Shown here piece after piece: positions 1 through 15,466 of a stretch of 64,000 nucleotides of DNA. The notes under the pieces are model-generated. The model was not told the origin of the DNA. It did not search any database and saw only the letters and a list, made by a program, of their open reading frames with translations. The translations under genes and the position numbers were made by a program. The DNA lies in assembly GCF_035917455.1 (NCBI RefSeq), contig NZ_CP109078.1:1674001-1738000 (forward strand), read 5' to 3'. Position 1 is the stretch's first letter. Each line of letters begins with the position of its first letter. This stretch comes from Micromonospora sp. NBC_01796 (GTDB lineage Bacteria > Actinomycetota > Actinomycetes > Mycobacteriales > Micromonosporaceae).

Positions 1-467
1 GCCTCCGGCAGGCCCGGCATGGCGTTGAAGTGGAAGTGCCACATGGAGGGGTCACGGGTACCGAACTCCCACGGGAACACCCCGGGGATGACAACGTGCA
101 GGATCACCGCGCGAGCCAGTCCGGGGAAGTGACGCAGGTAGGCGAAGGCCGCCATCCCGCCGACGTCGCTGCCGACCAGTGTCACGTCCCTGAGCCCGAG
201 CGCCTCGAACAGTCCGTACAACTTTCCCGCGATCGCCTTCTTGGTCCCGTCGGTCGGATCACCGAGCGAGCCGCCGACCCCGGGCAGGTCCACCGCGATG
301 GCGTGCGCGGAGGGCGCGGCCAGTTCCAGCACCCTGCGGTACGTCACCCAGGAGGTCGGGAAGCCGTGCACGAACACGACCGGGGGTGCCCCGGGCGTGC
401 CGGCCTCCACCACGTGCAGCGACGAATCGCCGACCTGCACCTGACGATGCCGAAGGTTGTCGTCCAT
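1..467 (-). CDS. alpha/beta-hydrolase, epoxide hydrolase/dehalogenase type (3' end off window)
   Basis: This reading frame runs off the left edge, so only about 155 N-terminal residues are visible. It starts at an ATG at 467 preceded by an AGGGGAAA ribosome site. The oxyanion-hole motif HGFPTSW lies near residue 35. The nucleophile elbow reads GSDVGG, placing aspartate where serine hydrolases carry serine. In this fold an Asp nucleophile is typical of epoxide hydrolases and haloalkane/fluoroacetate dehalogenases. The catalytic acid and histidine would lie beyond the edge. It is transcribed away from the flavin monooxygenase at 807 and probably belongs to the same biosynthetic cluster. A tailoring hydrolase is an inference; the substrate is unknown. 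Confidence 0.8.
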   Translation of the reverse strand, partial: MDDNLRHRQVQVGDSSLHVVEAGTPGAPPVVFVHGFPTSWVTYRRVLELAAPSAHAIAVDLPGVGGSLGDPTDGTKKAIAGKLYGLFEALGLRDVTLVGSDVGGMAAFAYLRHFPGLARAVILHVVIPGVFPWEFGTRDPSMWHFHFNAMPGLPE

Positions 468-806
468 CGGTTTTCCCCTAACAGTGAATGGTCTCTGGCT
501 TCCGGTTCCGCGGCATGAGCACGGGGTCGCGCGATCCCACAGGGCTCCGCCGCGAGCGGCGAGCGGCGAGTAGACGGGCATGCGGCATTTTCGGCATTTC
601 GCAGCCCTCGCGGATCTGATTCTGGGTCTCGCCGTACCAAAACCGCATCTCCGAGCGTGCCCCGCAAAGCGCAAGAAATGACCACCGGGATCGCATCCTC
701 GGAGGTGCGCCTACGGCGCACGTCAATGCAGAATCAAGTGCCACATCGCTGGCGACCCGGCTCCATTGCAGAGCACTTCCCAGATTTCGACACCCAGGAG
801 GGCATG
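468..806. promoter_or_regulatory. divergent intergenic region
   Basis: This 339-base gap separates the leftward hydrolase and the rightward flavin monooxygenase, so it should hold promoters for both. It contains a short tandem GCGAGCG-type repeat near 550-566 and a repeated GGCATTT motif near 583-597. Its base composition is less biased than the flanking genes and I see no credible reading frame in it. Confidence 0.4.
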
Positions 807-1994
807 ATGTCGCCGACGCAGACGGTGGCCCCGACGCGTGAAGAGTTGGTCCGGCGCGCCTCGTCGCTGGTGCCGTTGTTGCGCGAGCGGAGCGGGTGGA
901 TCGACGACAACCGGCGGCTGCCCGACGACGTGATCCGGGCGTTCGAGGACTCCGGCCTGCTCAGGATGCGCGTGCCGACACAGTACGGCGGGTTCGAGAG
1001 CGATGCCCGTACCCTGATCGACGTCCACGCGGAGATCGCCCGGGGTGATGGTTCGGCCGCCTTCTGCATCTCGGTCTGGTCCCTGATCAACTGGCTGGTC
1101 GGGCGTTTTCCCGACGAGGTGCAGGACGAGGTGTTCGCCACGCCCAATGTCCGGGTGTGCGGCAACATCTCGGCGACCGGTACGGCCACTCCGGTCGACG
1201 GGGGCTACGTCTACAACGGCCGATGGCGCTTCAGCTCCGGCGTACTGCACAGCCACTGGGTTTTCGCGGCGGCCATGCTGGACAGCCCGGACGGCCAGTC
1301 GGTGCCGATGACCGCGCTCATTCCCGCCAGCGAGATCGAGATCGTCGACGACTGGCACGTGACGGGGCTACGCGGCACCGGCAGTGTCACCACCGTGGCG
1401 AAGGACCTGTTCGTGCCCGCGGCACACGTGGTCGCGCAGAGCGATCTGTTCAGCCCGCAGAGCCAGTCCCGGGCCAACGCGGCGAAGCCGATCTACGAGG
1501 TGCCGCTGCTGGTCACCTCGACCGCGGCGACGGCCGGGCAGACCATCGGCGCCGCGAAATACGCCATGGAGTCCTTCCTGGAACGGCTCCCGGGCCGGAA
1601 GATCACCTACACCTACTACCAGAGCCAGCGCGAGGCGCCGATCACTCATTTCAAGGTGGGCGAGGCGGCGCTGTTGACGGAGGAGGCCGAGGCTCGGGCG
1701 CACCGCTTCGCCGAGATGGTGGAGCGCAAGGCGAAGATCAATGAACCGTGGTCGGAAGCCGATCGCATCTACTCCCGGGTGCAACTCGGGCGGATAGCCC
1801 AGCTCGCCGAGCGGGCGGTCAACATCCTCGCCTCGGCCAGCGGGGCATCGTCGATCTACGAGGACGTCCCGATCCAGCGCATCCAGCGCAATCTGCACGC
1901 CATGGCCATGCACGCGCTGACCCTGCCGGACACCAACATCGAGCTGTACGGCCGCAGCCTGTGCGGGCTCGAACCCAACACCCCGTTCCTCTGA
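807..1994 (+). CDS. flavin-dependent monooxygenase, acyl-CoA dehydrogenase fold (HsaA/HpaH-like)
   Basis: This 395-residue protein has the acyl-CoA dehydrogenase fold, but its C-terminal half resembles the group D two-component monooxygenases (HsaA, p-hydroxyphenylacetate hydroxylase C2). Those enzymes use reduced flavin supplied by a separate reductase to hydroxylate aromatic substrates. The flavin-region motif WRFSSG is at residues 140-145, and the tail carries the PIQRIQRNLHA helix typical of that branch. The ATG at 807 is chosen because GGAGG ends five bases upstream; an ATG at 804 is also possible. No flavin reductase gene is in the window. Its place beside a glycosyltransferase and P450 suggests oxidation of the aglycone. 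A role on the sugar cannot be excluded. Confidence 0.75.
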   Translation: MSPTQTVAPTREELVRRASSLVPLLRERSGWIDDNRRLPDDVIRAFEDSGLLRMRVPTQYGGFESDARTLIDVHAEIARGDGSAAFCISVWSLINWLVGRFPDEVQDEVFATPNVRVCGNISATGTATPVDGGYVYNGRWRFSSGVLHSHWVFAAAMLDSPDGQSVPMTALIPASEIEIVDDWHVTGLRGTGSVTTVAKDLFVPAAHVVAQSDLFSPQSQSRANAAKPIYEVPLLVTSTAATAGQTIGAAKYAMESFLERLPGRKITYTYYQSQREAPITHFKVGEAALLTEEAEARAHRFAEMVERKAKINEPWSEADRIYSRVQLGRIAQLAERAVNILASASGASSIYEDVPIQRIQRNLHAMAMHALTLPDTNIELYGRSLCGLEPNTPFL

Positions 1995-2216: not shown

Positions 2217-2612
2217 TCACATCTCCAGGCCGGACATATCCATGATCGGGTGAATCTCGACGGCGCCGAACCGCGCATCGGGAATCCGCGAGGCGATCTC
2301 GATCGCCCGCTCCATGCTTTCGCAGTCGAGCACGTCGTAACCCGCGAGCTGTTCCTTGGTCTCCAGGTACGGGCCGTCCGTGGTGGTCAGCACGTTGTCG
2401 CGCACCCGAACCGTACGGGTGGTCACCGGATCGGCCAGCGCCGCGGCCACCACCAGCTCGTCAGACTCGCTGATCTCCCGGCCCAGGGCCTCGGCCTGCT
2501 CCGTCAAAGCTTCGCGCTCGGCCGCCGGCATCGCCAGGAACTCCGGATTGCGCAGGAACATGGGATGCTCCCAGTTCTCCGGATTGCTGTAGATCAATAG
2601 CAGAAACTTCAC
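2217..2612 (-). CDS. YCII (DGPF)-domain protein
   Basis: This 131-residue protein is a dimeric alpha/beta-barrel YCII-domain protein. It begins KFLLLIYSNPE and carries the family signature as DGPYLETKE (usually DGPFAETKE) near residue 82. Such proteins are often encoded beside ECF sigma factors, or lie in biosynthetic clusters with no proven reaction. The GTG at 2612 is chosen because GGGGAGG stands just upstream and the family begins at this point; longer frames upstream are non-coding in character. It faces the monooxygenase gene tail to tail and follows the glycosyltransferase on the same strand. No sigma factor is nearby, so a cluster role is inferred only from position. Confidence 0.8.
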   Translation of the reverse strand: MKFLLLIYSNPENWEHPMFLRNPEFLAMPAAEREALTEQAEALGREISESDELVVAAALADPVTTRTVRVRDNVLTTTDGPYLETKEQLAGYDVLDCESMERAIEIASRIPDARFGAVEIHPIMDMSGLEM

Positions 2613-2763: not shown

Positions 2764-4071
2764 TCACGTCAGCGGTCCGGTCCCTCCGCCCGCTTTCCGC
2801 TGCGCCACCAGCTTCTCGAAGACGGCGACGGTGTCGTTCGGGGTGGGTGTCCGCAGATGCTCGTCGCGCAACCGGTGGGCATTGGAGATCATGTCCGGGT
2901 CGGTCAGCGCCTTGACCAGATACTCGCGCAGGAGTTCGGGGGTGAGCTGGTCGGCGTCGGCGACGTACGCGCCCGCCCCCTGCTCCTCCAGCCCGTTGGC
3001 CAGCGCGACCGACGCCCACCACTTCTCGTTCCAGTAGATGTTGGGCACCACGAGCTGCGGAACACCCAGTTCGAGGGCGGTGGCCATCGTGCCGTACCCG
3101 CCGTGGTGCACGACGGCCGAGCAGGTCGTCAGCAGCGCGTTGAGCGGCACGAAGTCGAACACGCGGACGTTGTCCGGAATCGACGCGGAGCCGAGTTGCT
3201 TGGCGTTGAACGTCGCGATGACCTCGATGTCGAGATCCGCGACCGCGTTGAACAACGTCTCGGCGGCCCCGGTCTGGCCGAAGTTGAAGTCCCGGTGCGA
3301 GACACCCTGGGTGATGCACACCCGGGGACGCTCCGGCTTTTCGAACATCCACTTCTCGACCTTGTGCGGACCGTGGAACGCGATCGGGCGCGACTGGATG
3401 TAGTCGACGTCCTTCGGCCGCCACGTCCACGTCGGCCAGCCGATCACCGTACGTTCTCCGAGCAGGACCTCCTCGTCGAAGGGGAAGCCGTACCGCTCGT
3501 AGATCGGCGCCAGCCAGTCGCGCAGCGGGTCCGGCCTGCCCTCGCTGCGGTGCAGCCCGCCGCCCTCGCCGTAACAGTCGGCGCGGAGCTGCGCGAGCGT
3601 GTCCGCGCCCCACAACAGCCGTGCGTCGAGCGCCCCGGACACCCGGGCCGCGAGACCGGCGCCGAACATGAACGGGTCCCTGAGCACCAGATCGGGCTTC
3701 CAGTCGGAGGCAAGCTGTACGAGGTCCTCGTAGATGTCCTCGTGGTGGTAGAGGGTGCTGGACCCGAAGGCCGTCAACTCCAGTTCGGTGAAGGGGTCCT
3801 TCACCTTCCGGTAGTCGGTCTGGGCCGGTCGGTACACCGGCAGGTTCGACCGGTCCGGTCCCCGATCCGGCTCGGTCGAGGACATCATCACGTCCATCGG
3901 AATGGTTCCACCCACCGGTACGCCCATGAACCCGATCGCCCCGATAGCGTCGGTCAGATCGGGTGCGGTGGCGAATCGGACGTCGTGTCCCGCGGTACGA
4001 AACGCCGACGCCATCGGCGCGAACACGTACAGGTGCGTCTTGAACGGCACGGTCACAAAAAGAACCCGCAT
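2764..4071 (-). CDS. TDP-sugar glycosyltransferase (GT1, macrolide/anthracycline type)
   Basis: This 435-residue GT-B enzyme transfers a deoxysugar from TDP to a natural-product aglycone. The N terminus (MRVLFVTVPFKTHLYVF) is the acceptor-domain opening strand of this family. The C-terminal donor-binding motif HHGGYGTMATALELGVPQ is near residues 325-345 and resembles those of EryCIII, DnrS and relatives. The start at 4071 follows GAGAGGAAG at good spacing; an ATG 13 codons upstream lacks one. Many relatives need a cysteine-less P450-like partner (EryCII, DnrQ). The P450 in this cluster keeps its heme cysteine, so no such helper is visible. It is the only glycosyltransferase in view and the likely user of the sugar made by genes 6322-15198. 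Confidence 0.88.
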   Translation of the reverse strand: MRVLFVTVPFKTHLYVFAPMASAFRTAGHDVRFATAPDLTDAIGAIGFMGVPVGGTIPMDVMMSSTEPDRGPDRSNLPVYRPAQTDYRKVKDPFTELELTAFGSSTLYHHEDIYEDLVQLASDWKPDLVLRDPFMFGAGLAARVSGALDARLLWGADTLAQLRADCYGEGGGLHRSEGRPDPLRDWLAPIYERYGFPFDEEVLLGERTVIGWPTWTWRPKDVDYIQSRPIAFHGPHKVEKWMFEKPERPRVCITQGVSHRDFNFGQTGAAETLFNAVADLDIEVIATFNAKQLGSASIPDNVRVFDFVPLNALLTTCSAVVHHGGYGTMATALELGVPQLVVPNIYWNEKWWASVALANGLEEQGAGAYVADADQLTPELLREYLVKALTDPDMISNAHRLRDEHLRTPTPNDTVAVFEKLVAQRKAGGGTGPLT

Positions 4072-4304
4072 CGACTTCCTCTCCACCAGGTCATTTAGCG
4101 TCACACGCATGTGAATCGGACGTGCCCGTCAACCCTCCCATCCGCGTTTTGACCACCGCATCTCCTGGAATGCGGTGCGTACGAGCACTACGGAAGAAGC
4201 TTCGGACCAGTCGTGTGTGCAGACTGGAGGGACCGCCGTGGACGCCATCGGTGCGCGCACGGTGAATGCGCTTGACCGCTTTTCCCCACAGAGGAGAGTC
4301 ATCG
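4072..4304. promoter_or_regulatory. divergent promoter region
   Basis: This 233-base gap lies between the leftward glycosyltransferase and the rightward SgcJ-like gene and must carry both start sites. I see no clear -35/-10 pair and no regulator gene in the cluster portion shown. Confidence 0.35.
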
Positions 4305-4709
4305 ATGACCACCGAGGTCTCTACCGACAAGGCCGCGATCGCGGCCGTCCCGCAGCGCGTCGTCGAGGCGTGGGCCAAGCAGGACGCGGCCGCCTTCGCC
4401 GGTGTCTTCACGGCCGACGGCACGCTGATCCTGCCGGGCCTGTTCCTCAAGGGCCAGGACGACATCCGCGCGTACATGAGCCAGGCGTTCGAGGGCCCGT
4501 TCAAGGGGACCAGGGTGACCGGGCAACCCATCGACCTGCGCGTTCACGGTGACCTCGGAATCGTCGTGACCCAGGGCGGTGTGCTCGCCCCGGGCGACGC
4601 GGAGGTCACGCCGGAGCGGGCCATCCGCGCCACCTGGATCGTGATCAAGGACGACGGACAGTGGCGCCTCGCCGCCTACCAGAACAGCCCGGTCAACACG
4701 CCCTCCTGA
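4305..4709 (+). CDS. SgcJ/EcaC (SnoaL-like, NTF2-fold) protein
   Basis: This small 134-residue protein has the cone-shaped NTF2/SnoaL fold: an N-terminal helix (VVEAWAKQDAAAFAGVF), then DGTLILPG and the closing strands TWIVIKDDGQWRLAAYQNS. It fits the SgcJ/EcaC group (TIGR02246), members of which occur in enediyne, anthracycline and other polyketide clusters with poorly defined roles. SnoaL proper is a polyketide cyclase; this branch usually lacks proof of cyclase activity. The ATG at 4305 follows GAGGAGAG, and the frame upstream has no ribosome site. It leads a rightward series that continues with the P450. A role in maturing or protecting the aglycone is inference. Confidence 0.75.
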   Translation: MTTEVSTDKAAIAAVPQRVVEAWAKQDAAAFAGVFTADGTLILPGLFLKGQDDIRAYMSQAFEGPFKGTRVTGQPIDLRVHGDLGIVVTQGGVLAPGDAEVTPERAIRATWIVIKDDGQWRLAAYQNSPVNTPS

Positions 4710-6188: not shown

Positions 6189-6321
6189 CCGTGCCCGTCG
6201 AGGAATCGCCGCCCCCTGACGGAGGGCAACGACGAAGTGGATCGGCCGTCGACCTGCCGGCAGGCTGGAGTTGCCCTGGCGATGCGACCTCGGCGAACCC
6301 CATGAGAGGGAGATCCTTCGG

Positions 6322-7704
6322 ATGGCCACAGATGCCCTTCTCGAGGCGCGCGAGGACAACGAACTCCCCGGCCGGTTCGCCCGCTCCGCCGCCGCCACGT
6401 CCGGTGCCGCCCTGCAAACGGCCGACTTTCCGGCGTGGTTCGCGCGGCGCCGCCTGGCCCACGAGTTCCGGGTCCGGCGGATCCCCTTCACCCAGCTCGA
6501 CCGGTGGGACTTCGAGGCGACCACCGGGAACCTCCGGCACCGCAGCGGCCGGTTCTTCACCGTCGAGGGCCTGGAGGTCAGCTCGGAGGACGACCCGACG
6601 CCGATCTGGCAGCAACCCATCATCGTCCAGCCGGAGATCGGCATCCTCGGCATCCTCGCCAAGGAGTTCGACGGCGTACTGCACTTCCTGATGCAGGCCA
6701 AGATGGAGCCGGGCAACACCGGCCTGCTCCAGCTCTCCCCCACCGTCCAGGCCACGCACAGCAACTACACCCGCGTACACGGCGGCAGTGCGGTGAAGTA
6801 CCTCGAATTCTTCAGCAACCTCGACCGGCACCGGGTGCTCGCCGACGTCCTGCAGTCCGAACACGGGTCCTGGTTCTTCCACAAGTCGAACCGGAACATG
6901 ATCGTCGAGACGCTCGACGACGTGCCGCCGGACGACGATTTCCGGTGGCTGACGCTGGGCCAGATCGGCGAACTCCTGCGCCTGGACAACGTCGTCAACA
7001 TGGACGCCCGTACCGTGCTCGCCTGCGCGCCCACCGCGTACGCCGAGGCCGGCGCGCTGCACTCGGACACCGACCTGCTGTCCTGGCTGACCACCGAGCG
7101 GTCCCGGTCCCGCCTGCGTGCCCGGCTCGTCCCGCTGTCCCGGCTGGCCGACTGGCCCCGTCGCGACGCGTCCCTCGGACACGTCCGGGACCGGTACTTC
7201 CGGGTGGTGGCGGTCGCGGTCGAGGCGGGCAGCCGTGAGGTGACGGCCTGGACCCAGCCGCTGATCGAGCCGGAGGGTCCGGGTGTGCACGCGTTCCTGT
7301 CCCGCTCCTTCGGCGGGGTGCCGCACCTGCTCGTGAACGCCCGGGCCGAGGGTGGCCTGCTGGACGTGATCGAACTCGGCCCGACCGTCCAGTGCCAGCC
7401 GCACGACCTCACCGACCCGCTCACCGGGCAACGCTCGCCCTTCCTCGACACGGTCATGAATGCCACCCCGGCGCGGCTGCGCTACTCGGCGCGGCACTGC
7501 GAGGAGGGCGGGCGTTTCCTCCGGGCGGAGAGCCGGTACCTGGTCGTGGACGCCGACGAGGATCAGGCGCCCGCGCAGCCGCCGCCCGGCTACCGCTGGG
7601 TCACCCCCGGCCAGCTCACCTCCCTGGCCCGGTACAGCCGGTACGTCAACGTCCAGGCCCGGACCCTGCTTGCCGTCATCAACGCCGGCGCGGTCCGGTT
7701 CTGA
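6322..7704 (+). CDS. NDP-4-keto-6-deoxyhexose 2,3-dehydratase
   Basis: This 460-residue enzyme removes the C-2 hydroxyl of TDP-4-keto-6-deoxyglucose, the first committed step to 2,6-dideoxysugars (EvaA, TylX3, KijB-type family). It shows the family's two repeated halves: W-F-A-R-R near 33-37 and S-W-L-T-T near 253-257, each followed by a P-L/F-x-x-L-x-x-W unit, then QPIIVQPE-type and QPLIEPEG segments. The ATG at 6322 is preceded by GAGAGGGAG, while the longer frame from 6271 has no ribosome site. The unstable 3,4-diketo product is normally captured by a 3-aminotransferase or a 3-ketoreductase. Here only the aminotransferase (9118) is present, which points to a 3-amino sugar. Confidence 0.92.
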   Translation: MATDALLEAREDNELPGRFARSAAATSGAALQTADFPAWFARRRLAHEFRVRRIPFTQLDRWDFEATTGNLRHRSGRFFTVEGLEVSSEDDPTPIWQQPIIVQPEIGILGILAKEFDGVLHFLMQAKMEPGNTGLLQLSPTVQATHSNYTRVHGGSAVKYLEFFSNLDRHRVLADVLQSEHGSWFFHKSNRNMIVETLDDVPPDDDFRWLTLGQIGELLRLDNVVNMDARTVLACAPTAYAEAGALHSDTDLLSWLTTERSRSRLRARLVPLSRLADWPRRDASLGHVRDRYFRVVAVAVEAGSREVTAWTQPLIEPEGPGVHAFLSRSFGGVPHLLVNARAEGGLLDVIELGPTVQCQPHDLTDPLTGQRSPFLDTVMNATPARLRYSARHCEEGGRFLRAESRYLVVDADEDQAPAQPPPGYRWVTPGQLTSLARYSRYVNVQARTLLAVINAGAVRF

Positions 7705-7751
7705 CCCCCGCCGTTCCGCGCCCGGCACCCACCATCACGGAAGGAGACGCG

Positions 7752-9047
7752 ATGTCGACACAGCACCCGCGGCAGGCGGGGGGCGGTGCCCTACGCTCGC
7801 CGCTGACGGCGGAGGGTCGCGTGCTGCTCGACCTCGCCGCCCCGTACGTACCGCAGATCCGGGCGGAGGCCGAGGAGAACGACCGCCTGGCCGCCTTCCC
7901 GGTCGAGACGTTCGCCGCCTTCGCCAAGAACGGCCTGATGGGCGCGACCGTGCCGACCGAACTCGGCGGCCTGGGTGTGACCCGGCTGCACGACGTGGCG
8001 ACCGCGCTCGCCACCGTGGCCGAGGCCGACGCCTCCACCGCGCTCGCCTGGCACGTCCAGCTCAGCCGCGGCCTCACCCTCACCTGGGAGTGGCGCAACG
8101 GCACACCACCGGTACGGGTGATGGCCGAACAGTTGCTGCGCTCGATGGCCAGCGGCAGGGCGGCGGTCTGCGGCGCGGTCAAGGACCATCCCTCGGCGGT
8201 CACCACCCTCACCCGGGACGGCTCCGGGCGCTGGTCGCTGTCCGGCCGCAAGACCCTGGTCAGCATGACGCCGATCGCCACCCACTTCTTCGTGCACGCG
8301 CAGACGCGGGTCGACGGCGAGCCGCCGATGCTGACCGTCGCGATGCTGCCCCGGGACACGCCCGGTCTGACCGTGCTCACCGACTGGAACGGCCTCGGCA
8401 TGCGCGCCTCCGGCACGGCCGACATCGCGTTCGACAACTGCCCGGTCTCCGACGAGGACGTGCTCCCCCGCCGATCTCTCGGCGGCCGGAACGACGCGGT
8501 CCTGGCCGGCCAGACGGTCAGCTCGATCACCATGCTCGGCATCTACACCGGGATCTCCCAGGCTGCCCGGGACATCGCGGTGGCCCGGTGCGCGGGTGGC
8601 TCCGGCCAGCCGCCGGCCGCGGCGGCCACCCTCCTCGCGGAGATCGACGCCCGCCTCTTCGCGCTCCGGGCGACCGCCGCGACCGCGCTCACCGACGCCG
8701 ACACCGCCTCCGCCGACCACAGCGGCGACCCGGCCGAGCGGGGCCGGCGGATGATGACCCCGTTCCAGTACGCGAAAATGATCGTCAACAAGATGTCGCT
8801 GGGCATCGTCAACGACAGCCTCACGATCGTCGGCGGGATGGCGTACTCGGCGGCGCACCCGCTGGCCCGGCTCGTCCGGGACGTACGCGCCGGCTGGTTC
8901 ATGCAGCCGTACACGTACCCGGACGGCGTCAACTACCTCACCGCGCAGGCTCTGCGGCTGCGGCGGGACAACGACTACGTGAGCGCTCGGGCGGTGCCCA
9001 CCCCGGTGGGCAACACGGAAGATGCCCCGCCCCGCGAGCGGGTGTGA
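7752..9047 (+). CDS. probable aminosugar N-oxygenase (nitrososynthase), acyl-CoA dehydrogenase fold
   Basis: This 431-residue flavoprotein has the acyl-CoA dehydrogenase fold. At the position of the catalytic glutamate loop (normally IYEGT) it reads M384-Q-P-Y-T388, just after the conserved RD pair at 376-377, so the dehydrogenase base is gone. Loss of that base is seen in flavin monooxygenases of this fold, including the TDP-aminosugar nitrososynthases KijD3, RubN8, DnmZ and ORF36, which oxidise a 3-amino group to hydroxylamine and nitroso. It sits between the 2,3-dehydratase and the 3-aminotransferase in one operon, the context expected for such an enzyme. AAGGAGA precedes the ATG at 7752. 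Another sugar or aglycone oxidation remains possible. Confidence 0.75.
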
Positions 9048-9117
9048 CGATGAGAGCCGGAGATCAACGTACGTCAACATCCCCGCGACACCCGTTGGTA
9101 CGAACCGGAAGGCGGCC

Positions 9118-10239
9118 ATGACCACTCGAGTCTGGGACTACCTGCCCGAGTACGAGAAGGAACGGGTGGACATCATCGACGCGGTCGAGACGGTGTTCGA
9201 GTCGGGGCAGCTCGTGCTCGGCGCCAGCGTGTCGAGCTTCGAGTCCGAGTTCGCCGGCTACCACGGTGGCGGGCACTGCACCGGGGTCGACAACGGCACC
9301 AACGCGGTGAAGCTGGGCCTGGAGGCGCTCGGCGTCGGCCCCGGCGACGAGGTGATCACCGTCTCGAACACCGCCGCACCGACCGTGGTCGCCATCGTCG
9401 GCGCCGGCGCCACCCCGGTCTTCGTGGACGTCCAGGAGGACGACTACCTGATGGACACCGACCTGGTGGCCGCCGCCATCACGCCACGGACCAAGGCCCT
9501 GCTCCCGGTGCACCTCTACGGCCAGTGCGTCGACATGGCCCCGCTGCGGCGGCTGGCCGGCGAGCACGGCCTGTCGATCCTGGAGGACTGCGCCCAGTCG
9601 CACGGCGCCCGCCACCACGGCCAACTAGCCGGCACGATGGGTGACGCGGCGGCGTTCTCGTTCTACCCGACGAAGGTTCTCGGCGCGTACGGCGACGGCG
9701 GCGCGGTGCTCACCCGGGACGAGAACATCGACCGCGCGCTGCGCCGGCTGCGGTACTACGGCATGGAGACGGTCTACTACGTGACCGCACTCCCCGGCCA
9801 CAACAGCCGCCTCGACGAGGTCCAGGCCGAGATCCTGCGCCGCAAGCTGCGCCGGCTCGACGAGTACATCGCCGGACGCAACGAGATCGCCGAACGGTAC
9901 GCCGAGGGGCTCGCCGACCTCACCGGCCCCGGCGGCCTGGTCCTGCCCTCGGTCCGGCCGGAGAACGACCACGTCTACTACGTGTACGTGGTGCGCCACC
10001 CGCGCCGCGACGACATCATCGAGCGGCTCCAGCGGTACGACATCGCGCTGAACATCAGCTACCGGTGGCCGGTGCACACGATGACCGGGTTCGCGCACCT
10101 CGGCTACGCCACCGGCTCGTTGCCGGTGACCGAACGGCTGGCCGACGAGATCTTCTCCCTGCCGATGTACCCGTCGCTGCCACGCGCCCGCCAGGACCAG
10201 GTGATCGAGGCCCTGCACGAGGTCCTCGGATCCCTCTAG
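9118..10239 (+). CDS. PLP-dependent TDP-sugar 3-aminotransferase (DegT/DnrJ/EryC1 family)
   Basis: This 373-residue aminotransferase installs the amino group on a TDP-keto-deoxysugar using PLP, usually with glutamate as donor. The Schiff-base lysine is K186 in [15 protein letters not shown]. The substrate and cofactor segments [12 protein letters not shown] and EDCAQSHGA are intact. The opening [15 protein letters not shown] and segment [13 protein letters not shown] resemble the C-3 aminotransferases of vancosamine and kijanose type pathways (EvaB, KijD2). A GGAAGG site precedes the ATG at 9118. With a 2,3-dehydratase upstream and no 3-ketoreductase in view, action at C-3 is the best reading. 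Confidence 0.9.
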
Positions 10240-10285
10240 TCCCGCCGCTTTTCCCCGCCGCCAACGACCGAGGAGCACAGCCATC

Positions 10286-11539
10286 ATGCCTACCGCCGAC
10301 TCGGCCCCGCCCGCGTCCACCACCACCACGTGCCAGGTCTGCGACGGCTCGGTCGAGGAGTTCCTGGACCTCGGGCGGCAGCCGCTCTCGGACGCCTTCC
10401 TGACCGAGCGCGACGTACCGGAGGAGTTCTTCTACCGGCTCGCCGTCGGGGTGTGCCACTCGTGCACGATGGTGCAGCTCGTCGAGCAGGTGCCGCGCGA
10501 GCGGATGTTCCACGAGGACTACCCGTACTACTCGTCGGGGTCGTCGGTGATGCGGGCGCACTTCGAGGAGACGGCCCGTGGCTTTCTCGCGACGGCGTTG
10601 GCCAAGCCCGACCCGTTCATGGTCGAGATCGGCAGCAACGATGGTGTGCTGCTGAAGACGATCCGCGCCGCCGGGGTGCGCCACCTCGGCTTCGAGCCGT
10701 CCGGGAAGGTCGCGGCGGCGGCGATGGAGCACGGGGTACGGGTGCTCAACGAGTTCTTCGACGCGGGCACCGCGGCCAGGGTACGGGCGGACGACGGGCC
10801 CGCCGACGCCATCTTCGCGGCCAACACGATCTGCCACATCCCGTACATGCGGTCGATCCTGGAGGGTGTCGACACGCTGCTCGCCCCGGACGGGGTGTTC
10901 GTCTTCGAGGACCCGTACCTCGGGGACATCGTGGCGAAGACATCGTTCGACCAGATCTACGACGAGCACTTCTTCTTCTTCACCGCCCGGTCGGTCCGGG
11001 CGATGGTGGCCCGTTTCGGCCTCGAACTCGTCGACGTCGAGCGGATTCCCGTACACGGTGGCGAGGTCCGCTACACCATCGCGCGGGCCGGGGCGCGTAC
11101 GCCGTCGGACGCGGTCGCCGAGCTGATCGCCGCCGAGGAGGCGCAGGGGCTCGCCGACCCGGCGACGTTGCGACGTTTCGCCGACGCGACCGCGCGGATC
11201 CGCGACGACCTGCGGGCTCTGCTCCAGCGGCTGCGGGACGAGGGGCACGAGGTGGTCGGGTACGGGGCCACCGCCAAGAGCGCGACGGTGACCAACTTCT
11301 GCGGTATCGGGACCGACCTGGTCTCGTTCGTCTGCGACACCACGCCGGCGAAGCAGGGGCGGCTGACGCCCGGCACGCACATCCCGGTCCGACCGGCGGC
11401 GGCCTTCGCCGACCCGTACCCGGCCTACGCGCTGCTCTTCGCCTGGAACCACGCCGACGAGATCATGGCGAAGGAGCAGGGGTTCCGCGAGGCCGGCGGG
11501 AAATGGATCCGGTACGTGCCGCACGTACACGTGAGCTGA
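10286..11539 (+). CDS. TDP-sugar 3-C-methyltransferase
   Basis: This 417-residue SAM-dependent enzyme belongs to the TylC3/EvaC/KijD1 family, which adds a methyl branch at C-3 of a 4-keto-3-amino deoxysugar. The N-terminal zinc-binding domain shows C16-x2-C19 and C57-x2-C60. The SAM loop is VEIGSNDGVLL from residue 113, and the long C-terminal domain (Methyltransf_14 type) completes the usual length. GAGGAGC precedes the ATG at 10286, 46 bases after the aminotransferase. With the aminotransferase and N-oxygenase it yields a quaternary C-3 carrying methyl and nitrogen, the hallmark of nitrosugars and vancosamine-type sugars. Confidence 0.92.
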   Translation: MPTADSAPPASTTTTCQVCDGSVEEFLDLGRQPLSDAFLTERDVPEEFFYRLAVGVCHSCTMVQLVEQVPRERMFHEDYPYYSSGSSVMRAHFEETARGFLATALAKPDPFMVEIGSNDGVLLKTIRAAGVRHLGFEPSGKVAAAAMEHGVRVLNEFFDAGTAARVRADDGPADAIFAANTICHIPYMRSILEGVDTLLAPDGVFVFEDPYLGDIVAKTSFDQIYDEHFFFFTARSVRAMVARFGLELVDVERIPVHGGEVRYTIARAGARTPSDAVAELIAAEEAQGLADPATLRRFADATARIRDDLRALLQRLRDEGHEVVGYGATAKSATVTNFCGIGTDLVSFVCDTTPAKQGRLTPGTHIPVRPAAAFADPYPAYALLFAWNHADEIMAKEQGFREAGGKWIRYVPHVHVS

Positions 11540-11562
11540 CCACACACGAGACGGAGCTGACC

Positions 11563-12207
11563 ATGTCCGAACACGCGCGGGAACTGGCGATCGGTGGGGC
11601 CTTCGCCTTCACCACCGCGGCTTTCCCGGACGAGCGCGGTGTCTTCCTGTCGCCGTACCAGCAGTCGGTGTTCGTCGAGGCGGTCGGGTACCCGCTGTTT
11701 CCGGTGGCCCAGTGCAGCTACAGCTCGTCCCGCCGGGGCGTGGTCCGGGGTGTGCACTTCACCACCACCCCACCGGGTACGGCCAAGTACGTCTACTGCC
11801 CGCGCGGCAGGGTCCTCGACGTCGTCGTCGACCTGCGGGTGGGCAGCCCGACGTTCGGCGCCCACGACACGGTGGTGATGGGCGGCGAGGACTTCCCGGC
11901 CGTGTACCTCCCGGTCGGGGTCGGCCACATGTTCGTCGCCCTGGAGGACGAGTCGGTGATGACGTACCTGCTCTCCACGGAGTACCGACGGGAGAACGAA
12001 CTCGCCGTCTCCCCCTTCGACCCGAGGTTGTCGCTGCCGATCCCCCGGGAGATCACGCCGCTGCTGTCCGAGCGGGACCGGCTGGCGCCGACACTGGCCG
12101 AGGCGCTGGCCGCCGGGATCCTGCCGGACTACACGGCGAGCCTGCGGGCCGAGGCGGCGCTCACCCCGACGCCGAAGCCGTCCGGGTCGGGTGCACGAGG
12201 GCGGTGA
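11563..12207 (+). CDS. TDP-4-keto-hexose 5-epimerase (RmlC/EvaD family)
   Basis: This 214-residue cupin inverts C-5 (and perhaps C-3) of a TDP-4-keto sugar, turning the D- into the L-series. The catalytic base is H65 in the RGVHF motif, and the general-acid tyrosine is probably Y135 in SVMTYLLSTEY. Because C-3 carries both a methyl and a nitrogen in this pathway, only C-5 epimerisation makes chemical sense, as with EvaD. ACGGAGCTG precedes the ATG at 11563. The last 47 bases overlap the tail of the oppositely transcribed ketoreductase gene. Presence of this gene predicts an L-configured sugar. Confidence 0.9.
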   Translation: MSEHARELAIGGAFAFTTAAFPDERGVFLSPYQQSVFVEAVGYPLFPVAQCSYSSSRRGVVRGVHFTTTPPGTAKYVYCPRGRVLDVVVDLRVGSPTFGAHDTVVMGGEDFPAVYLPVGVGHMFVALEDESVMTYLLSTEYRRENELAVSPFDPRLSLPIPREITPLLSERDRLAPTLAEALAAGILPDYTASLRAEAALTPTPKPSGSGARGR

Positions 12208-13195
12208 CCGTACGGTCCAACGCCTCCCGGAGCGGGACCAGCGGACGCCACCCGGTGGCCGCCCGGAACGCCGACGCGTCCACCACCATGCTGTGCGCGT
12301 CGGTCCCGGTGGCCTGCGCCGGAGGCGGTACGGAGACAACCGGGACCGGGGGTCGGCCGGTGTGCCCGGCGACGACCTCCGCGATCGTCCCGAAGAGGTC
12401 CCGCAGGCTCACTCCGACTCCTGTCCCGAGCGGCCAGTGCCGGCCGGCGAGGAGGTCCGCGTGGTGCAGGGCCGCCACGAAGGCCTCGGCGACGTCGTCC
12501 ACGTACAGCAGGTCGCGCTGGACCGCGCCGTCGGCCCACACGGTGAGCGGCTCGTCGGCGAGTGCCCGGCGGGCCATCGCCGCCACGACCCCACGGTCCG
12601 GTGCCGCCGGAGCCGGGGCCGGTCCGAAGATCGTCGGTAGCCGCAGGGACACGCCCCGGAGCACACCCTCGGCGGTGGCGGCGCGGAGCAGTCCTTCGGC
12701 GGCCTGCTTCTGCCGGTCGTAGGCGGTTGCCGGGTGGTCGGTCTCGGTGCCGTCGATCGGCACCCGGGGCGGCAGGCCGACCTGCGACGTGGACCCGGCG
12801 AACACCACCGCCGGGGCCGGCAGACGGCGGCTGCGCAGCGTCCGGACGAGGTCGTCCAGGACCCCCACGTTGGTGCGCTCGCTCGCCGGGTCGTGGTCGG
12901 CGCCACGCCAGCCGGAGGTGTGCAGGACCAGGAAGACCACCGCGTCGGCGTCCGCCACGGCCGCCTCGACGGCACCGGGGGTGGTGAGATCGGCGGCGTA
13001 CGTCTCGACCTCGGCGACCGCGCCGTGCGGCACCGTGACCGGCCGGCGGGCGACCGCCCGCAGCCGGACCGGGCGGCGGGCCAGGGCCGCCGTCACCGCC
13101 GACCCCACGAAACCGGACGCCCCGAGTACGGCGACCAGCGGCGGCTCCCCGTCCCCACGAGTCGGCCACGGCCCGGGTTCGCGTGTCTGCGTCAT
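12161..13195 (-). CDS. TDP-4-keto-deoxysugar 4-ketoreductase
   Basis: This extended short-chain dehydrogenase/epimerase family protein of about 344 residues reduces the C-4 ketone, the last step before transfer (EvaE type). The dinucleotide motif GASGFVG is at about 25-31 and the catalytic tyrosine-lysine pair appears as TAYDRQK. It is the only sugar gene on the minus strand, convergent and overlapping by 47 bases with the epimerase and divergent from rmlA. The start is uncertain: the ATG at 13195 lacks a good ribosome site, and an ATG at 13246 has GGTGAG too close. I keep the shorter form because family members begin shortly before the glycine motif. Confidence 0.87.
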   Translation of the reverse strand: MTQTREPGPWPTRGDGEPPLVAVLGASGFVGSAVTAALARRPVRLRAVARRPVTVPHGAVAEVETYAADLTTPGAVEAAVADADAVVFLVLHTSGWRGADHDPASERTNVGVLDDLVRTLRSRRLPAPAVVFAGSTSQVGLPPRVPIDGTETDHPATAYDRQKQAAEGLLRAATAEGVLRGVSLRLPTIFGPAPAPAAPDRGVVAAMARRALADEPLTVWADGAVQRDLLYVDDVAEAFVAALHHADLLAGRHWPLGTGVGVSLRDLFGTIAEVVAGHTGRPPVPVVSVPPPAQATGTDAHSMVVDASAFRAATGWRPLVPLREALDRTVTALVHPTRTASASG

Positions 13196-13329
13196 CGCTA
13201 CAGCGTGGCGGCGGCGGTGGTCGGCGGCATCTTCCGGATTGCGCATCTCACCACGGAACGCCGCAATACAGGAGACCTTTCCCAAGGGGTCACAAGCCAA
13301 TACTGGAATCCCCGACGAACGGAGCTGGC
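13196..13329. promoter_or_regulatory. divergent promoter region, 4-ketoreductase / rmlA
   Basis: These 134 bases between the leftward ketoreductase and rightward rmlA must serve both. The low-GC stretch around 13262-13311 is a likely promoter area, but no clean hexamer pair can be called. Confidence 0.35.
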
Positions 13330-14202
13330 ATGAAGGGAATCATCCTGGCCGGCGGCACCGGAAGCCGGCTCTACCCGTTGACCCTGGCGACGTCCAAGCA
13401 ACTGCTCGCCGTCTACAACAAGCCCCTCGTCTACTACCCGCTCTCCGCGCTGATGCTGGCCGGCATCCGGGACATCCTGATCATCTCGACGCCGTCGACG
13501 GTGCCGCTCATGCGCGCCCTGCTCGGCGACGGCTCCCAGCTCGGCCTCCGGATCTCCTACGCCACCCAGGAGGAGCCACGGGGCATCGCCGAGGCGTTCG
13601 TCATCGGCGCCGACCACATCGGACCGGACCCGGTCGCGCTGATCCTCGGCGACAACCTCTTCCACGGCGCCGGATTCGCCCAGCGGCTGCAGCAGTGCGT
13701 GGCCTCGCTCGACGGCTGCACCCTCTTCGGCTATCCCGTCTCGGACCCGAGCCGGTACGGCATCGGCGAGATCGACGAGAACGGGATGCTCGTCTCGATC
13801 GAGGAGAAGCCGCTGCGCCCGCGCTCCAACAGCGCCATCACCGGCCTCTACTTCTACGACAACGAGGTGGTCGACATCGCCCGCCGGCTCACCCCGTCGG
13901 CCCGTGGCGAACTGGAGATCACCGACGTCAACCTGGAATACCTCAAGCAGGGCCGGGCACGGCTGATCCGGCTCAGCCGGGGCAACACCTGGTTCGACTG
14001 CGGCACCCACGACTCGCTCCTGGCGGCCAGCCAGTACGTGCAGGTCATCGAGAAGCGGCAGGGCGTACGGGTGGCCTGCCTGGAGGAGATCGCCCTCCGG
14101 ATGGGGTTCATCGACGCCGAAACCTGCTACCAACTCGGCGTCGGAATGCGCCAGTCGGACTACGGCCAGTACCTCACCCAAATCGCGTACGCGCTGGACT
14201 GA
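13330..14202 (+). CDS. rmlA: glucose-1-phosphate thymidylyltransferase
   Basis: This 290-residue nucleotidyltransferase makes TDP-glucose from glucose-1-phosphate and TTP, the entry step of the sugar pathway. The nucleotide-binding signature GGTGSRLYP is at residues 8-16. The metal and sugar binding segments GDNLFHG, YGIGEID, SIEEKP and TWFDCGTHDS are all present, at the family's normal length. The ATG at 13330 follows GGAGCTGG. The stop lies 6 bases before rmlB, so the two are translationally close. Assignment to this cluster rather than to cell-wall rhamnose synthesis rests on its neighbours. Confidence 0.96.
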   Translation: MKGIILAGGTGSRLYPLTLATSKQLLAVYNKPLVYYPLSALMLAGIRDILIISTPSTVPLMRALLGDGSQLGLRISYATQEEPRGIAEAFVIGADHIGPDPVALILGDNLFHGAGFAQRLQQCVASLDGCTLFGYPVSDPSRYGIGEIDENGMLVSIEEKPLRPRSNSAITGLYFYDNEVVDIARRLTPSARGELEITDVNLEYLKQGRARLIRLSRGNTWFDCGTHDSLLAASQYVQVIEKRQGVRVACLEEIALRMGFIDAETCYQLGVGMRQSDYGQYLTQIAYALD

Positions 14203-14208
14203 GCGGAC

Positions 14209-15198
14209 ATGAGGATCCTGGTCACCGGCGGAGCCGGATTCATCGGTTCACACTTCGTCCGCGCCACCCTCGGTGGCGAATACGGCGAGTACGACAACCT
14301 GCACGGCGCCGAGGTCACCGTCCTGGACAAGCTGACGTACTGCGGCAACCGGGCGAACCTCCAGCCGGTGGCGGACGATCCACGCCTGCGGTTCGTGCCC
14401 GGCGACATCTGCGACGCCCGGCTGGTGAACACGGTCGTCCCCGGCCACGACGCCGTGGTGCACTTCGCGGCCGAAACCCACGTGGACCGCTCCATCGACG
14501 GTGGTGCCGAGTTCGCCCGGACCAACGTGCAGGGCACGCAGACCCTGCTCGACGCCGCCCACCGGCACGGGGTTTCCCGGTTCGTGCACGTCTCCACCGA
14601 CGAGGTGTACGGATCGATCGACGAGGGCTCCTGGGACGAGCGCCGCCCGGTCGCGCCCAACTCGCCGTACTCCGCGACGAAGGCCGGGTCGGACCTGCTG
14701 GCGCTGGCCCATCACCGTACGCACGGACTGCCGGTGATGATCACCCGCAGCTCCAACAACTACGGGCCGTACCAGTACCCGGAGAAGGTCATCCCGCTCT
14801 TCGTCACCAACCTGCTCGACGGGCGGACCGTGCCGCTCTACGGCGACGGGAACAACGTCCGCGAGTGGGTGCACGTCGACGACCACTGTCGCGGCATCGC
14901 CCTGGTGCTGGCCGGCGGCCGGCCCGGTGAGATCTACAACATCGGCGGCGGCACCGAGTTGAGCAACAGCCAGCTCACCGACCACCTGCTCAGCGCCTGC
15001 GAGTGCGGGTGGGAGCGGGTCCGCCGGGTCGAGGACCGCAAGGGCCACGACCGGCGGTACTCGGTCGACGACGGGAAGATCACGGCGGAGCTGGGCTACC
15101 GGCCACGGATCGGGTTCGCGGAGGGCCTCGCCGAGACCGTCGCCTGGTACCGCGCCAATCGCGCCTGGTGGGAGCCGCTGCGCGCAGCCCGCGACTGA
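14209..15198 (+). CDS. rmlB: TDP-glucose 4,6-dehydratase
   Basis: This 329-residue extended SDR enzyme converts TDP-glucose to TDP-4-keto-6-deoxyglucose with bound NAD. The Rossmann motif GGAGFIGSH is at the N terminus. The dehydratase catalytic set is visible as STDEVYGS (Thr, Asp, Glu) and PYSATK (Tyr and Lys). SSNNYGPYQYPEK and REWVHVDDHCRG complete the signature. It begins 6 bases after rmlA. Its product is the substrate of the 2,3-dehydratase at 6322, so it feeds the whole branch. Confidence 0.96.
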   Translation: MRILVTGGAGFIGSHFVRATLGGEYGEYDNLHGAEVTVLDKLTYCGNRANLQPVADDPRLRFVPGDICDARLVNTVVPGHDAVVHFAAETHVDRSIDGGAEFARTNVQGTQTLLDAAHRHGVSRFVHVSTDEVYGSIDEGSWDERRPVAPNSPYSATKAGSDLLALAHHRTHGLPVMITRSSNNYGPYQYPEKVIPLFVTNLLDGRTVPLYGDGNNVREWVHVDDHCRGIALVLAGGRPGEIYNIGGGTELSNSQLTDHLLSACECGWERVRRVEDRKGHDRRYSVDDGKITAELGYRPRIGFAEGLAETVAWYRANRAWWEPLRAARD

Positions 15199-15241: not shown

Positions 15242-15466
15242 GTGGCCACTACCCGGTGGCGGGTCTCAGTCAACCCGAACGCCTGCGTGTCCTCCGGCAA
15301 CTGCGTGTCCATCGCGCGGGGCCGGTTCGAACTCACCGACGACGGGGCACGTCCCCGGGCCGAGCTGCTCGACCCGGACGACGACGTCGTCGAGGCCGCG
15401 GAGACGTGCCCGATGGAAGCGATCAGGATCATCGACGTGACCGACAACTCGGTCGTCGCCCCGTAG
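15242..15466 (+). CDS. 3Fe-4S ferredoxin for P450
   Basis: This 74-residue single-cluster ferredoxin starts with GTG after GAGAGGAAG. Its cysteines C15-x5-C21 and C56-P57 are the three ligands of a 3Fe-4S cluster; the fourth position that would make 4Fe-4S is occupied by a non-cysteine residue. Proteins of this kind, usually encoded beside P450s in actinomycetes, pass electrons to the P450. Here it lies about 9 kb from the only P450 (4903), at the far end of the sugar operon, but it is the only candidate partner in view. Confidence 0.92.
   Translation: MATTRWRVSVNPNACVSSGNCVSIARGRFELTDDGARPRAELLDPDDDVVEAAETCPMEAIRIIDVTDNSVVAP

Follow-up and report, generated by a model that had tools for sequence, protein, structure and literature searches.

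A predicted nitrosugar gene set of Micromonospora sp. NBC_01796 that probably serves a split enediyne pathway

We analyzed a 64,000-nucleotide stretch of the genome of Micromonospora sp. NBC_01796 (bases 1,674,001-1,738,000 of the 8.56 Mb single contig NZ_CP109078.1; hereafter the window) together with the DNA on its left, for which positions are negative. The left end of the window carries genes for a branched deoxysugar, with a predicted sugar nitrososynthase among them. They belong to a block running from -9.6 to +15.5 kb (block B), and an enediyne core (block A) lies ~34 kb further left. Enediynes are very potent DNA-cutting antibiotics. We consider it quite probable that these genes supply the sugar for an enediyne pathway split between the two blocks, whose likeliest product would be a nine-membered enediyne bearing an evernitrose-like sugar.

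Proteins were identified by Pfam and NCBIfam profile scans and by comparison with the sequences of PDB structures. An earlier note on this DNA had named eight enzymes, namely RmlA, RmlB, a 2,3-dehydratase, a 3-aminotransferase, a 3-C-methyltransferase, a C-5 epimerase, a 4-ketoreductase and an acyl-CoA-dehydrogenase-like flavoprotein, and profile or structure matches place all of them where it had put them. Judged by sequence, the genes from 6271 to 15198 are confirmed as a set predicted to provide a thymidine diphosphate (TDP)-2,3,6-trideoxy-3-C-methyl-3-amino hexose and its nitroso or nitro form, and the sugar proposed in the note, TDP-2,3,6-trideoxy-3-C-methyl-3-amino-L-hexose with its N-oxidized form, still holds. 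Likewise, the 3-ketoreductase that had not been seen did not appear in our scans: no GFO/IDH-type enzyme was found among the scanned block B proteins (a 124-aa protein at -9637 lies outside the scan). The description of the genes as a compact set holds only in part: the genes are real, but a self-contained sugar set is not the whole picture, as they would supply the sugar for a larger pathway, probably that of an enediyne.

In bit scores, the flavoprotein reaches 557 with PDB entry 3mxl (named 'Nitrososynthase'), 502 with 3m9v and 444 with DnmZ, and just 87 with the first protein beyond this group. We take 3mxl to be ORF36 and 3m9v to be KijD3. The glutamate of the EGT motif is the catalytic base of acyl-CoA dehydrogenases. 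In the alignment it is replaced by glutamine in the window enzyme, 3mxl and 3m9v and by histidine in DnmZ, and it is kept in six of nine aligned acyl-CoA-dehydrogenase-like paralogs, so that the label 'base-less' given previously to the flavoprotein is apt. A grouping with true acyl-CoA dehydrogenases, which the note had put forward as a refutation, did not occur in scores, tree or alignment, and the bit scores together with the replaced glutamate rule out an enzyme of that kind. By its sequence, the flavoprotein is a nitrososynthase, predicted to oxidize the TDP-3-amino-3-C-methyl sugar to its nitroso form. Separately, a paralog with 31-32% identity to the nitrososynthase, likewise devoid of the EGT glutamate, was observed in all three members of the genus (L029, L030, L031).

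One would also wonder whether the sugar is kept as nitroso or nitro at all, and not released as an amine or hydroxylamine of the vancosamine type, or oxidatively cleaved as in baumycin formation. The kinship with DnmZ speaks for this possibility, the work on baumycin carbon-carbon bond cleavage reportedly concerning that enzyme. A monooxygenase review, in whose available text the word nitrososynthase occurs in a reference only, has among its references a paper on nitrososynthase-triggered cleavage in the biosynthesis of baumycin (PMC6165268). On the other hand, the window enzyme is nearer to 3mxl and 3m9v than to DnmZ and its accompanying gene set matches the 3mxl locus, and we regard such a fate of the sugar as unlikely.

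For the aminotransferase, the nearest solved structures are 7b0d (306 bits), 2oga (291), presumably DesV, and QdtB (268), with far lower scores for 2po3 (134), presumably DesI, and CalS13 (86). A C-3 enzyme is further supported by a 75% match to the aminotransferase gene beside that of 3mxl. Two points count against it: the top NCBIfam models, all well below their cut-offs, are PseC (223) and ArnB (200), which we take to be C-4 enzymes, and perosamine synthetases score up to 209 bits. The assignment as a 3-aminotransferase is thus probably right, on sequence evidence that is good though not clean.

The locus of 3mxl itself offers the closest comparison for the whole sugar. Micromonospora sp. 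ATCC 39149, the everninomicin producer, encodes a nitrososynthase identical to 3mxl across the compared columns, and we assume that ORF36 comes from the everninomicin pathway and that its nitrosugar is L-evernitrose, with a 4-O-methyl group. Contiguous homologs in this strain match the nitrososynthase (67%), aminotransferase (75%), 3-C-methyltransferase (71%), epimerase (61%), 4-ketoreductase (61%) and a methyltransferase (64%). The gene of the latter was missing from the stretch first described, and the suggestion that it sits further left proved right, since it is found at -5954..-5049, beyond the window; in ATCC 39149, its relative adjoins the 4-ketoreductase gene. The evernitrose-type set (dehydratase, 3-aminotransferase, 3-C-methyltransferase, epimerase, 4-ketoreductase, nitrososynthase and methyltransferase) is thus present as 7/7 in the window genome and as 6/7, contiguous, in ATCC 39149, where the stretch compared did not take in the dehydratase. 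As six of the seven enzymes match the 3mxl locus, a sugar of the evernitrose type is predicted. Its O-4 would be methylated by the enzyme encoded at -5954, to judge from the neighbourhood of that gene, and we infer the stereochemistry of the sugar and the order of the substrates.

Block A contains an iterative polyketide synthase (PKS) with genes for a 4HBT thioesterase, a P450, a UnbV/ASPIC protein, two DUF1702 proteins, a GMC oxidoreductase, a DUF5987 protein, a flavin reductase and a 346-aa protein. The GMC oxidoreductase is, we assume, what is called E9-like, and the genome holds one such gene at E<=1e-150; which core genes stand for E3, E4 and E5 is also presumed. The PKS, the 4HBT thioesterase, UnbV/ASPIC, DUF1702 and the adjoining 346-aa protein occur together, as in an enediyne cassette, which has been described as E3/E4/E5/E/E10 (PMC5181780, available text). 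The core also includes a CopC-domain protein with an apparent C-terminal membrane stretch (L078:18374-18958; window -61626..-61042), which is 76-77% identical in one genome of the same genus (G002, below) and unmatched in the seven linked clusters described below.

The ring would probably be nine-membered. Relatives of the nine-membered type are the nearest solved structures for three accessory proteins, namely the core flavin reductase (4r82, 185 bits) and, in block B, the epoxide hydrolase (4i19, 586 bits) and a SnoaL-fold protein (SgcJ, 161 bits). We take 4r82 to be SgcE6 and 4i19 to be SgcF, and all three relatives to come from the nine-membered C-1027 cluster. These matches argue against a ten-membered enediyne, which we find improbable even though the matches of the PKS include DynE8 (183 bits, for a best match of 313), presumably from a ten-membered pathway. 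As a published rule, the presence of E2 with the absence of R3 indicates nine members (PMC5181780, available text).

We then looked at whether nitrososynthase and enediyne genes meet in other genomes. In a first scan, a nitrososynthase query retrieved 20 loci in 19 genomes, with the 346-aa core protein as enediyne marker. The marker was present in 15 of these genomes: it lay on the contig of the nitrososynthase gene, ~14-42 kb away, in seven, at 4.1 Mb in one, and on another contig in seven, which were not scored as linked (G008, G012, G013, G014, G017, G018 and G021, Streptomyces sp. McG3 included); it was missing from four. The seven linked clusters are those of Actinomadura sp. BRA 177, Amycolatopsis saalfeldensis DSM 44993, Nocardiopsis ansamitocini, Amycolatopsis sp. 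CA-126428, Microbispora amethystogenes NBRC 101907, Streptomyces sp. CB02056 and S. griseus NCTC13033. The nitrososynthase, aminotransferase, 3-C-methyltransferase, epimerase and 4-ketoreductase, as well as the methyltransferase at -5954, recur in 7/7 of them and the dehydratase in 6/7, with RmlA and RmlB above 40% identity in just 1/7 and 2/7, respectively. With this recurrence, the grouping of the sugar genes is not due to chance. On the core side, the stretches compared hold UnbV and the 346-aa protein in 7/7, the PKS in 6/7 and the thioesterase in 5/7, and beside these cores lie an epoxide hydrolase (7/7), an SgcJ-like protein (5/7) and an FMO-type enzyme (5/7).

A second survey covered 354 genomes of the window's family, at E<=1e-100 for the nitrososynthase and E<=1e-150 for the E9-like gene. 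A nitrososynthase was found in 16 genomes, which makes the earlier word 'rare' a fair one, an E9-like gene in 92 and both in six, for ~4 expected by chance. In three of these six the two gene types are near each other, namely the window genome, G126 (~19 kb) and G074 (~47 kb), and in G067 and G224 they are on different contigs. To illustrate this proximity, core, tailoring and sugar genes of G126 all fall within ~48 kb. That both gene types occur somewhere in a genome thus says little, and the signal that counts is their physical linkage. The two gene sets lie near each other in ten genomes: within 50 kb on one contig in the seven linked ones, G126 and G074, and across the ~34 kb between the blocks in the window's.

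In the window genome, the pathway is split and mosaic. Two genomes of the same genus (G001 and G002) also hold much of the ~34 kb between the blocks, which is therefore genus backbone. In G001, 1.3 kb separates the two points between which block A would sit, which makes the block a clean insertion by comparison with that genome. All 19 block A genes are present in G002 (75-95% protein identity), whose core adds its own epoxide hydrolase (55% to that of the window genome), an HsaA-like enzyme (48%), three SgcJ-like proteins and further genes. In contrast, the core of the window genome has no visible epoxide hydrolase, FMO or SgcJ-like genes, and block B has its own versions (among the accessory genes of G002, the search of the window genome covered the epoxide hydrolase only). 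The site of block B carries unrelated genes in both same-genus genomes; it is variable, with a 27 kb set in G002 (C1:1006107-1032903) and a 41 kb set in G001 (C1:5484822-5526229).

We built concatenated trees for the core genes, for the tailoring genes with the glycosyltransferase, and for the sugar genes, and compared constraints by the approximately unbiased (AU) test. The window genome groups with G002 in the core tree, with A. saalfeldensis in the tailoring tree and with G126 in the sugar tree, each time with 100/100 support. For the core (p-AU 1e-47) and the sugar genes (9e-5), the test rejects a placement of the window genome beside A. saalfeldensis; for the tailoring genes, it rejects one beside G126 (3e-117). 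These values are indicative, as the groups tested were picked after the identities had been seen. Nocardiopsis was left out of the core tree (3/9 genes), G002 out of the tailoring (1/4) and sugar (0/7) trees, and G074 and G018 are in none; the place of Streptomyces sp. CB02056 in the core tree, which shifted when an extra gene row was added, was not used. Altogether, the three trees conflict with good support, and the simplest account is that a core of the genus has been completed by a horizontally gained block, itself mosaic.

Three further features were seen in these comparisons. An IS4-type transposase gene (L004:2201-3694; window -37799..-36306) lies in the backbone between the blocks, at a gap in the alignments to both same-genus genomes. 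An 822-aa fusion of caspase (PF00656) and Cpn60/TCP1 (PF00118) domains (L004:6006-8474; window -33994..-31526) shares 81-84% identity with its positional counterparts in these two genomes. G001 has no block A here, but an 82% E9-like GMC oxidoreductase is encoded at G001:C1:1531886-1533496, where another enediyne cluster may lie.

Least likely of the alternatives, and doubtful in our view, is that the sugar set decorates a compound made elsewhere, such as a modular polyketide, the enediyne core being an unrelated neighbour with an unglycosylated product, as that of G002 may be: the backbone between the blocks, the lack in G002 of block B sugar genes or glycosyltransferase within the 140 kb compared and of a nitrososynthase genome-wide, and 23 ketosynthase matches in the window genome, including a large modular PKS near 6.05-6.07 Mb, would fit it, but epoxide hydrolase, SgcJ- and FMO-type genes such as those of block B recur by enediyne cores, the core here lacks these accessory genes, among others, relative to G002, and the iterative PKS accounts for the sole ketosynthase match within 100 kb, by which an aglycone from another nearby PKS was rejected.

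Several observations nevertheless weigh against an evernitrose-bearing enediyne. With ~34 kb of backbone between the blocks, the argument that they function together is a comparative one only. In Micromonospora sp. ATCC 39149, 4.1 Mb lie between nitrososynthase and marker, in G304 at least 345 kb between nitrososynthase and E9-like gene, and ten of the 16 family genomes with a nitrososynthase have no E9-like gene at E<=1e-150, two of them (G253 and G262) carrying the other core marker. The nitrososynthase often serves other aglycones and most are not shown to be enediyne-linked, yet a recurring linked family exists. We also considered that the enediyne-linked nitrososynthases form one clade, an idea rejected by 3 changes on the tree for a shuffled mean of 2.8. 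The methyltransferase at -5954 scores below its Pfam cut-off (22.9 for 30), and a search for a PDB relative found none. Five other epoxide hydrolases of the same type are encoded in the genome (43-57% to that of G002). The domain set of an enediyne PKS is KS-AT-ACP-KR-DH-PPTase, and Pfam did not call the ACP and PPTase domains here. Finally, a neocarzinostatin-type apoprotein is absent among the Pfam-scanned block proteins (uncalled short ORFs were outside the scan); apoproteins are not universal, being found in 7 of 21 predicted nine-membered clusters (PMC5181780, available text).

The remaining features of block B are given in Table 1 with those discussed above. The glycosyltransferase is the only one called in block B, as had been noted. 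The P450 is no Cys-less glycosyltransferase activator, a role that we tried and rejected on its intact Cys motif and a TIGR04515 score of 131 bits for a cut-off of 343. No match to the ferredoxin was found in the linked clusters, at thresholds that are demanding for a protein of its size. To the right of the ferredoxin, a DUF2142 membrane protein (15627-17216) is unmatched here in both same-genus genomes and in the linked clusters.

Table 1. Features of blocks A and B, by position relative to the window start (linked clusters: the seven with nitrososynthase and enediyne marker on one contig).
Feature	Position	Strand	Remarks
Enediyne core (block A)	-69797..-43750		Left of window
Iterative PKS, 1,932 aa	-58642..-52844		In enediyne core; KS, AT, KR, DH
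Sigma factor	-9193..-7943		Left of window
BBE oxidase	-7602..-6124		Left of window
Methyltransferase, 301 aa	-5954..-5049		Left of window; Pfam 22.9 bits
MFS	-4992..-3526		Left of window
FAD monooxygenase	-3325..-1931		Left of window
Epoxide hydrolase	-1727..-567		Left of window; nearest 4i19, 586 bits; 5f4z also related
Alpha/beta hydrolase	1..467	-	Extends past left window edge
HsaA-like two-component flavin monooxygenase	726..1994	+	Reciprocal best hit in 5/7 linked clusters
YCII-domain protein	2217..2612	-	In 6/7 linked clusters
EryCIII-like glycosyltransferase	2764..4110	-	In 7/7 linked clusters, 47-73%
SnoaL-fold protein	4305..4709	+	Nearest solved relative SgcJ, 161 bits; in 5/7 linked clusters
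Cytochrome P450	4903..6147	+	Nearest solved relative CYP154A1; haem Cys motif FGYGTHYCFG intact
NDP-hexose 2,3-dehydratase	6271..7704	+	PF03559, 506 bits; 6271 is the earliest possible start
Sugar nitrososynthase, by sequence	7752..9047	+	3mxl/3m9v/DnmZ group
Sugar aminotransferase, probably C-3, DegT family	9118..10239	+	PF01041; first ATG 9022, relatives align from 9118
Sugar 3-C-methyltransferase	10286..11539	+	TcaB9-like, 653 bits
dTDP-sugar 5- (or 3,5-) epimerase, RmlC-like	11563..12207	+	PF00908, 160 bits
SDR-type ketoreductase, taken as 4-ketoreductase	12161..13246	-	PF01370; reduced carbon inferred
RmlA glucose-1-phosphate thymidylyltransferase	13330..14202	+	TIGR01207, 415 bits, cut-off 361
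RmlB-like dTDP-glucose 4,6-dehydratase	14209..15198	+	Pfam level only
Small ferredoxin (Fer4_15), possible P450 partner	15242..15466	+	

We propose the following pathway, should both blocks be expressed and work jointly. RmlA, RmlB, the 2,3-dehydratase, 3-aminotransferase, 3-C-methyltransferase, epimerase and 4-ketoreductase would give TDP-2,3,6-trideoxy-3-C-methyl-3-amino-L-hexose. The nitrososynthase would then convert the amine to a nitroso group, further oxidation leading to nitro, and the methyltransferase would cap O-4 to yield an evernitrose-type sugar. The cassette with the iterative PKS, which begins 44 kb and ends 70 kb to the left of the window start, would build the enediyne core, which the tailoring enzymes of block B (epoxide hydrolase, SgcJ-like protein, FAD monooxygenases and P450) may finish; the glycosyltransferase would attach the sugar to this core.

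Parallels can be drawn with known systems. The everninomicin producer shares the six contiguous sugar homologs (61-75%) and differs in the distant position of its enediyne marker; its aglycone is, we assume, an orthosomycin. Kijanimicin and tetrocarcin have a spirotetronate aglycone and a D-sugar; their nitrosugar genes resemble those of the window (502 bits to 3m9v, 653 to TcaB9), whereas the window genome has an RmlC-type epimerase and an enediyne core. Relatives of SgcJ, 4i19, 5f4z and 4r82 (the last three presumably from the C-1027 and neocarzinostatin clusters) and an enediyne-type PKS cassette are shared with C-1027 and neocarzinostatin, but no nonribosomal peptide synthetase, naphthoate, benzoxazolinate enzyme or apoprotein is annotated among the scanned block proteins. 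To our knowledge, the sugars of C-1027 and neocarzinostatin are not nitrosugars. Jejucarboside and amycolamycin are cycloaromatized glycosides that derive from nine-membered enediynes and carry a branched or an amino sugar; the sugar of the former is however a 3-methyl-4-methylamino-4,6-dideoxy-D-gulose, the aminosugar of the latter arises by a dehydrogenase/decarboxylase route, and the available parts of these accounts do not mention a nitrososynthase (PMC10381858, PMC8037709).

One account names ten kinds of nine-membered enediyne or cycloaromatized product, namely neocarzinostatin, C-1027, kedarcidin, maduropeptin, N1999A2, sporolide, cyanosporaside, fijiolide, amycolamycin and jejucarboside; in the available text of that source, 'nitrogen' is the only word beginning with 'nitro' and nitrosugars are not mentioned (PMC10381858). 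Amino-sugar genes are reported in four predicted nine-membered clusters, and 'nitro' does not occur in the available main text, supplementary gene tables apart (PMC5181780). We found no report joining an enediyne with a nitrososynthase, nitrosugar, evernitrose or kijanose, in a literature search largely outside the subscription journals; the one paper retrieved that contains both 'enediyne' and 'nitrososynthase' is the monooxygenase review mentioned above (PMC6165268).

On this basis, we advance, as an evenly balanced proposal, that ten or more actinomycete genomes encode an undescribed family of nine-membered enediynes carrying evernitrose, and that its pathways were put together as three modules, each with its own line of inheritance, were exchanged (core; tailoring with glycosyltransferase; sugar). 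In the window genome, a genus core without epoxide hydrolase, monooxygenase and SgcJ genes of its own would have been completed by a foreign block ~34 kb away. With the split, mosaic copy described here, it can be tested directly whether enediyne cores exchange their peripheral modules. Provided that the pathways are active, new enediynes carrying a redox-sensitive sugar would be expected from them, and strains in which to look include A. saalfeldensis DSM 44993 and Microbispora amethystogenes NBRC 101907. If the proposal is true, the activation or binding of a DNA-cleaving enediyne could be tuned by its nitroso or nitro group.

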